From Elusimicrobia bacterium GWA2_62_23 (GTDB taxonomy: Bacteria; Elusimicrobiota; Elusimicrobia; Elusimicrobiales; UBA9959), in NCBI GenBank assembly GCA_001799635.1, contig MGTV01000039.1, forward strand, positions 1 through 64,000: a DNA stretch of 64,000 bases, in the 5' to 3' direction. This document shows, piece by piece, positions 4,963 through 43,731 of this stretch. Position 1 is the stretch's first letter. Every line of letters starts with the position of its first letter. The position numbers and the translations under genes are program-made. Below the pieces are notes generated by a model. That model saw nothing but the letters and a program-made list of their open reading frames with translations, made no database searches and was not told where the DNA came from.

Positions 4963-5140
4963 GTTGCCCCCTAGTTTTCAGATAAATGAATTCCATCCCC
5001 AATTTTTAACGCTCGCTCTAAGAGGCGAGCACATATTTTTCGATAGGAGCTCACTTCTTTCTGCTCCCTAAGCCTATCCCAAGGCGCATGCTAAAATCTT
5101 TAAATAACTCTGTGAAAGGCGTTATGCAAAACGAGGAGGG

Positions 5141-5170
5141 GCGGGTGACGAGGGGTGTGCCTTCGGAGGG
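5141..5170 (+). repeat. Solo fragment of the same repeat family
   Basis: GCGGGTGACGAGGGGTGTGCCTTCGGAGGG versus GCGGGTGGCGAGGGTGTGCCTTCCGAGGG at 42407-42435. Confidence 0.7.
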
Positions 5171-5234
5171 GTGTCGCGGAGGTCGAGGAGGTGTCGGCAA
5201 GCCGGCGCGTTTCGGGGTTTTGTATAATTGAGGG

Positions 5235-40068: not shown

Positions 40069-41205
40069 ATGAAACGCATCCTGGCCCTGCTGCTAGCCGT
40101 CCTGCCCTGCCCCGCCCTCCTGGCGGCCGACGGGCGCGCGGCCGAGGGGCCCCGCATCAGGGTGGCGATCGCCCGCAATTCCCCGTCCATCAAACTTAAG
40201 ACCTCGGCCAAGATCTTCGTCACCGAGGGAGCCAGCGGCAAGAAGTTCCTGCTCCTGGAGAACGCCGCCTACGACATAAAGCCCTCCGCGGGCGGCATCG
40301 CCGTGGCCGGCCAGCAGCTGGCCTCGCCCATAAAGCTCTCCCCTCCCGACGGCGAGGAGCGCATCCGCCTGGGCGGCAAGCTCTACAAGGGCGACATTCT
40401 CATCCATACCGTGGCCGGCGACCGCCTGGACATCATAGAACATCTTTCCATCGAGGACTACCTGTACGGCGTGCTCCCGGTGGAGATGAGCCCGGACTGG
40501 CCGCTTGAGGCGCTCAAGGCGCAGGCCGTGGCGTCGCGCACCTACGCCATGAAGTACATAAACACCTCCCGGGATTACGACGTTACCGACGGGGTGGAGA
40601 AGCAGGTCTATACCGGCGCGGGCAGGGCCAACGGCCGCATCATGGAAGCCGTCAACAGTACGCGCGGCGAAGTCCTGAAATACAAGGGGAAGCTGCTTAC
40701 CGCTTTCTTCCACGCCTGCTGCGGCGGCCATACGGCCAGCGCGAAGTCCGCCTGGGGCGAAGACGTGCTGAAGCCGCTTTACGGGGTGCAGGACCCCTTC
40801 TGCGCGCCCTCCAGGCATTCCAGGTGGAAGTTCTACGTGCCCACCCAGGACCTCCTCAAGTTCATACAGACACGGGGCTCGACGGCCCTTAAGATAAAAG
40901 GAGTGCGGGTCTATAAGAAGGATCGCTCCGGCAGGGCGGTCTCGCTGCGCTTTACCACGGACCGCGGCGCCCGGGACGTCTCCGTCAACGAATTCCGCAA
41001 ACATATCGGCAATTCCGAGTTCAGGAGCTCCCTGGTGACCCGCGTGGTCCCGGTAAAGGGCGGTTACGAGTTCGCCGGCCGCGGCTGGGGCCACGGCGTG
41101 GGCATGTGCCAGGAGGGCGCCAAGTACATGGCCCTCAAGGGCAGGCCCTACAAGAAGATCCTCCGCCACTATTATCCCGGAGTGACGATAACCGATTATG
41201 AGTGA
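40069..41205 (+). CDS. SpoIID/LytB-domain protein
   Basis: LSIEDYLYGVLPVEMSPDWPLEALKAQAVASRTYAMKY...GRGWGHGVGMCQEGAKYMALKG. Confidence 0.92.
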   Translation: MKRILALLLAVLPCPALLAADGRAAEGPRIRVAIARNSPSIKLKTSAKIFVTEGASGKKFLLLENAAYDIKPSAGGIAVAGQQLASPIKLSPPDGEERIRLGGKLYKGDILIHTVAGDRLDIIEHLSIEDYLYGVLPVEMSPDWPLEALKAQAVASRTYAMKYINTSRDYDVTDGVEKQVYTGAGRANGRIMEAVNSTRGEVLKYKGKLLTAFFHACCGGHTASAKSAWGEDVLKPLYGVQDPFCAPSRHSRWKFYVPTQDLLKFIQTRGSTALKIKGVRVYKKDRSGRAVSLRFTTDRGARDVSVNEFRKHIGNSEFRSSLVTRVVPVKGGYEFAGRGWGHGVGMCQEGAKYMALKGRPYKKILRHYYPGVTITDYE

Positions 41206-42241
41206 AGCGCTTACCGAATTCGAAGCCCTTGAAATAGAGCCGCTCATCGCCGACCGGCCGGCCGAGCCGCGGGATTCCTCGCGGCTGCTGGCCGTGAACC
41301 GCTCCGACGGCAGCCTCACCCACTTGCGCTTCAGGGACCTTCCCTCCCGGCTGGGCCCCTCGGACCTGCTGGTGCTCAACCGCAGCAAGGTCTGGAAAGC
41401 CCGCCTGGCCGCGGCCAAGCCCACCGGCGGCAAGTCCGAGATCCTGCTGATGGCCCCTTCCACAGCCGACGGCCTCACCTGGACGGGCCTCTGCCGCAAG
41501 GTGCTGCCCGGGCAGTTCCTGGAGTGCGCGGGCGGCGCGAAGGCGGAATGCCTGGCCCGCAACGCCGACGGCAGCTATTCTTTCCGTTTCTCTACCCCGG
41601 TGGACGAGGCCTATCTCCTGGCCAACGGTGCCGTGCCGCTGCCGCAGTACATCCTCAACGCCCGCAAGCGCCGCGGCGCCGAAGCGCCCGCCGACGAGGA
41701 GAAGTACCAGACGGTTTACGCCGCCGAGGCGGGTTCCATCGCCGCCCACACCGCGGGCTTTCATTTTACGCCGGACCTTTTCGAGCGCCTGGCCGCGGCC
41801 GGCGTGAAGAAAACCTTCGTGACCCTGCATATCGGCTGGGGCACGTTCAAGCCGGTGCGCGCCGAGGACCCGGCCGCCCACGTGATGATGGAAGAGACCT
41901 GTTTCGTTCCCGAGGAGACCGCGGCCCTGGTCAACGCCCACCGGGCGGCCGGCGGCCGCGTGATCGCCGTGGGGACCTCCTCCATGCGTACCCTGGAGAC
42001 TTTTACCGGCGAGGACGGGACGCTGAAGGCGGGCTCGGGCAAGGCCGGCCTGTTCATCCGGCCGGGCTACAGGTTCAAGTCGGCGGGGGCCTTCATTACG
42101 AACCTGCACGTGCCGGATTCGGCCCCCCTCTACATGACCGCCGCCTTCGCCGGCCGCGACCTGCTTTTTAAAGCGTATTCGGAAGCCGTTAAGGAAAAGT
42201 ACCGCTTCTACTCCTACGGCGACTCGATGATAGTTCTGTAG
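41198..42241 (+). CDS. queA: S-adenosylmethionine:tRNA ribosyltransferase-isomerase
   Basis: PAEPRDSSRLLAVNRSDGSLTHLRFRDLPSRLGPSDLLVLNRSKVWKARL...FTPDLFERLAAAGVKKTFVTLHIGWGTFKPV. Confidence 0.96.
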   Translation: MSEALTEFEALEIEPLIADRPAEPRDSSRLLAVNRSDGSLTHLRFRDLPSRLGPSDLLVLNRSKVWKARLAAAKPTGGKSEILLMAPSTADGLTWTGLCRKVLPGQFLECAGGAKAECLARNADGSYSFRFSTPVDEAYLLANGAVPLPQYILNARKRRGAEAPADEEKYQTVYAAEAGSIAAHTAGFHFTPDLFERLAAAGVKKTFVTLHIGWGTFKPVRAEDPAAHVMMEETCFVPEETAALVNAHRAAGGRVIAVGTSSMRTLETFTGEDGTLKAGSGKAGLFIRPGYRFKSAGAFITNLHVPDSAPLYMTAAFAGRDLLFKAYSEAVKEKYRFYSYGDSMIVL

Positions 42242-42264
42242 TTGGCGCTGTGGTGAGTCGGTCC

Positions 42265-42543
42265 GGCCGAGGTGTTATTCCGCTCGCCAGGACTGCAGGG
42301 AACCGTTGCGCGGTTCCCCTCCAACCTGCGGTTGGAGCCTCCCTTCCCCAACTGGCGCTCGGAACAACACCTCGGCCGTCCCTCTGCGGCAGGCCGAATA
42401 ACAGGAGCGGGTGGCGAGGGTGTGCCTTCCGAGGGATTTCCCGGAAGCCCGAGCTTGCGTAAGCGCGAGGGCTGAGGGATAAACGGCGCGCACGGTGTGC
42501 GCGACCGTGTGCCCGAGGAAGGCATACCCTCGACAGGACCCGC
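42265..42543. repeat. Large double-palindromic intergenic element (two adjacent cloverleaf-like folds)
   Basis: Outer arms 42265-42290/42352-42377 (23 of 26 bp match) enclosing two perfect 8-bp hairpins; second outer arms 42407-42430/42517-42543 enclosing further hairpins. Confidence 0.85.
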
Positions 42544-42579
42544 GCACTTGCAGGCCGGCCGAAGCGAAGTTGGACTTAA

Positions 42580-43731
<1,152 letters not shown>

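Follow-up and report, generated by a model that had tools for sequence, protein, structure and literature searches.

Palindromic repeats in bacteria are usually short and have been studied in a few cultured genera. REP/REPIN elements are palindromes carrying a GTAG tag (PMC3116915, PMC3733652, PMC8266576). REPs are intergenic, they are seldom found between divergent genes, and their tags can be degenerate (PMC3733652). They are recognised strand-specifically by TnpA-REP, which uses GTAG plus the hairpin (PMC8266576). The enterobacterial intergenic repeats ERIC/RU measure 127, 168 and 103 bp (PMC2759123).

In the window, i.e. the whole 64,000-nt stretch of Elusimicrobia bacterium GWA2_62_23 DNA that was analysed, the gap between queA (41198-42241) and tgt (42592-43731) is palindromic and contains two units, which we name A and B. 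With a probability of roughly 0.6, we read them as non-autonomous, REP/REPIN-like mobile palindromes of 120-180 nt, branched and moving as a folded single strand, A and B being two interior types of one superfamily. The units are spread in many copies, are present or absent at the same site in different genomes, have sharp-ended recent copies, fold on one strand, have common ends and form facing pairs.

Two palindromic units and their families

Codon-usage scoring of the queA-tgt gap finds no coding ORF, in agreement with the preliminary description, which had noted the absence of a good ORF and proposed one double cloverleaf. The folded structure is real, but it consists of two separable elements lying back to back (Table 1). 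In A, the outer arms are identical at 23 of 26 positions upon reverse complementation, as claimed, and both perfect hairpins, GGGAACCG-TTGCG-CGGTTCCC and CTCCAACC-TGC-GGTTGGAG, are exact. No inverted repeat like this (23/26) was found within 120 nt in mononucleotide-shuffled window sequence, a small control of 6 kb. The second long palindrome, in B, is present, with CGAGGGTGTGCCTTCC and GGAAGGCATACCCTCG pairing at 15 of 16 positions and GCGGG/CCCGC pairing further out, and it encloses two additional hairpins. It is imperfect, however, and the end previously given (42543) falls short, as the element extends to ∼42562. Folded as RNA, 42255-42395 reaches -76.9 kcal/mol (z -6.06) and 42395-42562 reaches -93.5 kcal/mol (z -5.63), with 0/200 dinucleotide shuffles as good in either case. 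Both halves of the gap are therefore far more stable than shuffled sequences. Rfam covariance models gave no match of A or B to a known RNA family. Elsewhere in the window, the 5' half of a B unit persists in decayed form (GGAGGGGCGGGTGACGAGGGGTGTGCCTTCGGAGGGG...) at 5133-5190, shortly before an ATG near 5232.

Table 1. Parts of units A and B in the window. Unit A is stated on the minus strand, its putative folding strand; the plus strand served to build covariance model R1.
Feature	Coordinates	Strand	Basis
Unit A, long outer stem around two hairpins	42255-42388	-	R1 match, 143.8 bits; G.T/A.C asymmetry
A stem, left arm	42265-42290		23/26 complementary to 42352-42377; columns covary among copies
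A hairpin with loop TTGCG, conserved, near-invariant across copies	42298-42318		Alignment, covariation, direct check
A variable hairpin; sequence changes between copies, pairing kept	42319-42337		Alignment, covariation, direct check
A conserved unpaired strand CCTCCCTTCCCCAA	42338-42351		Alignment A1
A stem, right arm	42352-42377		Direct check against left arm
Unit B, long stem and two hairpins	42385-42566	+	R2 match, 197.2 bits; G.T/A.C asymmetry
B 5' terminal GGCAGGCC	42388-42395	+	Similarity of recent B copies ends at boundary
GGAG tag, 5' foot of B stem	42404-42407	+	Foot-motif count
B hairpin 1 with conserved CTTGCGTAAG	42447-42472	+	Fold, alignment, covariation
B hairpin 2 with conserved CACGGTGTG	42484-42507	+	Fold, alignment, covariation
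B 3' tail module Z (CCGCGCACTTGCAGGCCGGCC)	42540-42560	+	One mismatch to pattern searched

A BLAST search of the gap against its own assembly identified 47 places in 2.98 Mb, most of which match only the left half or only the right half, and alignment resolved them into two families. Family A (∼130 nt) combines the near-invariant TTGCG hairpin with a second hairpin and outer arms that vary, whereas family B (∼175 nt) begins with GGCAGGC and ends with GCCTGCC. Covariance models place A at 34 distinct sites in the genome (R1, E<1e-6) and B at ∼32 (R2). Within the genus, A was detected by R1 in 18/19 genomes, with 0 to 62 copies per genome, and B by R2 in 32/32, with varying copy number; all these genomes are drafts, mostly metagenome assemblies, the copies are related, and the counts are not of independent events. 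R1 found A in 0/12 genomes of the sister family, where B was not found either. In a phylum-wide sample, R2 detected B in some genera of the same family and not in others, with a few weak matches in other families. Phage and plasmid collections contained no match to A or B. Dozens of copies thus exist in this genome and its relatives, and the possibility entertained at the outset, that there are no similar sequences elsewhere, fails.

Several copies have unusual structures. Runs of N occur within elements L037 (G000 C3:40211-40363), L166 and L019, which suggests that assemblies break there and that copy numbers are undercounted. A ∼45-nt module, GGCCGTCTGATGAGCATAGCTCTTGATACGGCACGGGCATAGCCCA, sits in the TTGCG loop of A and inside B variants, forming nested palindromes; its carriers are L038, L140, L248, L249, L245 and L269, and the queA-tgt gaps of G001 and G007. 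Finally, L033 (G000 C19:17088-17290) is an A/B hybrid in which a B interior and an A half are joined at the common word CTGCAGG, which suggests recombination between A and B.

Covariation and the folding strand

Compensatory substitutions among homologues, the absence of which, together with that of similar sequences elsewhere and of a transcript, would have reduced the gap to a chance palindrome according to the preliminary description, are abundant. For A, 81 matches in other species show pairing in 94.6% of cells; two-sided changes number 506 (123 upon shuffling), and covariation is 0.452 (0.123 upon shuffling). For B, 66 matches display 97.0% pairing, 500 two-sided changes (127 upon shuffling) and a covariation of 0.531 (0.157 upon shuffling). 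Both alignments were fitted to their covariance models, and sliding the partners by 1-3 columns abolished the signal, with a covariation score of at most 0.10.

To determine which strand folds, we took advantage of stem mismatches. In a palindrome acting as double-stranded DNA, G.T and A.C mismatches would be equally common. Because two A columns with a fixed A.C mismatch confound a plain wobble count, mismatches were counted with a strand-symmetric helix finder, scoring Watson-Crick pairs only and penalising every mismatch equally. On the minus strand of A, the G.T:A.C ratio is 30:3 in this genome and 91:21 in relatives; the corresponding ratios for B, taken on its plus strand, are 24:4 and 23:3. 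When only distinct local contexts are counted, the ratios in genome and relatives are 22:3 and 57:19 for A, and 18:4 and 18:3 for B. The strand of A was picked from a model-based count in relatives, which makes the A count in this genome the more independent check. Such an excess of G.T over A.C on one strand only means that a single strand, either RNA or ssDNA, must fold. The constraint thus acts on the folding of one strand, minus in A and plus in B. This strand is ssDNA in our best reading, and could also be RNA. Mismatch strand polarity represents a simple test, requiring nothing but sequences, by which ordinary DNA palindromes can be told from those under a single-strand constraint; the test is applicable to other MITE-like repeats (ERIC, BOX and RUP). 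By itself, compensatory change is no proof of a functional RNA.

Probable mobility, common ends and genomic context

The B of the window shares 94-99% identity over ∼171 nt with five other B copies, which have sharp ends and unrelated flanks. No consistent target duplication was found among 15 copies with Z-type ends. The queA-tgt gap is empty (7-33 nt) in six genomes/species, and in many other species it harbors varied A, B or other palindromic combinations. Similarly, the conserved gap that precedes a microcompartment-type gene (a label given by eye from the protein) contains A in 8 of 30 genomes, in both orientations, and is empty (15-28 nt) in 16. In a tree of four concatenated proteins, species with A at this site are interspersed among empty ones, and this patchy occupancy means repeated gain or loss. 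At the same site, G036, G040 and G012 (L346, L347 and L362) have another, AT-richer long palindrome (GAAATCGAAAATCGAGAATC...). A candidate clustering of copies at the same genes across species was discarded, as it corresponded partly to opposite sides of one gene; we therefore used only the two sites above, compared gap by gap. Mobility of A and B, as we read it from copies and empty sites, is probable. The REP/BIME-like mobile nature, offered originally as one of three options beside a structured RNA and a non-autonomous transposable element, is well supported by the many copies, empty sites, inverted pairs and intergenic position.

A and B have end modules in common. On the folding strand, GGAG is found at the 5' foot of 59/107 A and 33/58 B units, compared with 17 and 8 in a mirrored control; in the window's own A copy, this tag is degenerate. 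Two 3' tails, X (GACTGGGCATCTCGCGG) and Z (GAACTTGCAGGCCTGCC), are common to A and B and occur almost exclusively on the 3' side, and Z indeed also adjoins A units (L020 and L021). All 15 adjacent pairs (A-B, A-A or B-B) are inverted, with active strands -,+ and 5' feet facing each other. The A and B units in the window form one such facing pair, and many copies elsewhere are single. Gene calls based on codon usage show that the units are separated from genes by a few tens of nt and sit mainly between co-directional or convergent ones; the neighbours of A are co-directional in 64 cases, convergent in 15 and divergent in 2. There is no bias in lagging-strand orientation in this genome (18/37), where GC skew is weak and power low.

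The search for a RAYT/TnpA-REP-like transposase that had been recommended did reveal RAYT-like genes, but 0/34 Y1_Tnp loci in the genus have an A or B unit within ∼1.5 kb. This genome has five Y1_Tnp genes. Three of their products were scanned and resemble REP-associated tyrosine transposases, with scores under the NCBI cut-off, and at least three of the five genes are flanked by their own inverted ends, which bear no relation to A or B. L009, L010 and L011 are RAYT-like genes between their own inverted ends (e.g. GGGGACGCTCATTCCTAATTCC), a TIRtron layout as defined in PMC3733652. Five genus genomes, all draft assemblies, carry B without a detected Y1_Tnp gene. A recurrent flanking gene was also considered as a candidate transposase and rejected, since the flanking-protein clusters looked by eye like common neighbours or broad families.

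In the mechanism that we favour, one defined strand would form a long stem that leads to a two-hairpin junction, the 5' foot bearing a GGAG-type tag and the 3' side a characteristic tail. In this folded, single-stranded DNA form the unit would be recognised in trans and moved by a nuclease or transposase specific for that strand, most plausibly of the HUH (Y1) type, as suggested by the geometry of the tags, the polarity of the folding strand and the lack of target duplications. The model for this is the strand-specific recognition of GTAG and hairpin by TnpA-REP (PMC8266576). Units would persist just behind genes, where they may be tolerated. A bolder version, which we regard as tentative and rather doubtful, is that A and B can stand in for each other as the interior flanked by common end modules, that the mover is neither a RAYT nor a reverse transcriptase, and that the branched fold is its substrate, with arms diversifying under that constraint over the age of the genus.

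Alternative explanations and known systems

The strong covariation, the G.T wobble polarity and the near-invariant hairpin of A would also be expected of a functional structured RNA, i.e. transcribed non-coding or 3'-untranslated units selected for RNA folding, which spread because they are useful (e.g. for mRNA stability or as protein-binding sites). In the same vein, A at the microcompartment site of G007, G033, G035 and G017 resembles by eye a single inherited insertion with compensatory changes. We nevertheless consider this explanation unlikely. Relative to co-directional neighbours, sense and antisense orientations of the folding strand are about equally frequent (sense:antisense 38:26 for A and 15:18 for B), so that the fixed orientation expected of a cis-regulatory RNA is absent in both families, and this use of either orientation argues against a strand-specific mRNA element. 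In addition, the conserved microcompartment site is occupied in either orientation and lacks the element in 16/30 genomes, and the copy number of A within one genus varies from none to several dozen. Strand-polar folding and insertion in either orientation are also compatible with a SINE-like structured RNA, retrotransposed by a reverse transcriptase acting in trans. However, no reverse transcriptase (RVT_1) was found in this genome, despite its recent B copies, and only 8/32 genus genomes have one, which makes this scenario highly improbable.

Classical MITEs, internally deleted derivatives of a DDE transposon that move as double-stranded DNA via their terminal inverted repeats, would account for the short inverted ends (GGCAGGC...GCCTGCC) and for dozens of intergenic copies, and ERIC/RU repeats of similar size exist (PMC2759123). 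This is improbable, because no consistent target duplication was found, and recognition of double-stranded ends leaves both the strand-polar mismatches and the conserved branched interior unexplained. Of 15 Z-end matches in this genome, 13 are good, and these coincide with known units or with an N-filled pair; no longer element was seen in this draft assembly. As for chance GC-rich palindromes or ordinary terminators, the sequence is indeed GC-rich, intergenic and downstream of a stop codon, but dozens of copies, covariation and empty sites refute this explanation, to which we assign practically no weight; the original remark that the gap is not a simple terminator was correct.

A lineage known mainly from metagenome assemblies thus harbors large, branched, covarying elements, at tens per genome, and its relatives provide naturally empty sites. 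Among the closest counterparts of A and B are REP/REPIN, with which they share many intergenic copies, few of them between divergent genes, an arrangement in inverted pairs, stems in which compensatory changes and GT pairs occur, and a strand-specific folded form. The tetranucleotide enriched at the 5' foot is GGAG in A/B, a possible counterpart of the GTAG of REPs, whose tags can be degenerate (PMC3733652). On the other hand, A and B are ∼130 and ∼175 nt long and branched, with two inner hairpins, whereas a REP is a 20-40-nt hairpin. Their tags always face inwards (15/15), which corresponds to the TT arrangement of PMC3733652, they have several alternative 3' tails and two interchangeable interiors, and they have no linked RAYT gene. 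As two defining features, size and a linked RAYT, differ, we have not filed A and B as members of REP/REPIN. ERIC/RU repeats are similar in length, palindromic and intergenic, with dozens of copies; A and B belong to another lineage, however, and show no sequence relation to them in the collections searched. Of the five Y1_Tnp genes in this genome, at least three have the layout of TIRtrons (PMC3733652), but the ends of these genes (e.g. GGGGACGCT...) bear no sequence relationship to A and B. Non-autonomous derivatives of IS200/IS605 similarly involve a folded single strand and no target duplication, whereas A and B copies do not adjoin a transposase gene of that kind and occur in inverted pairs.
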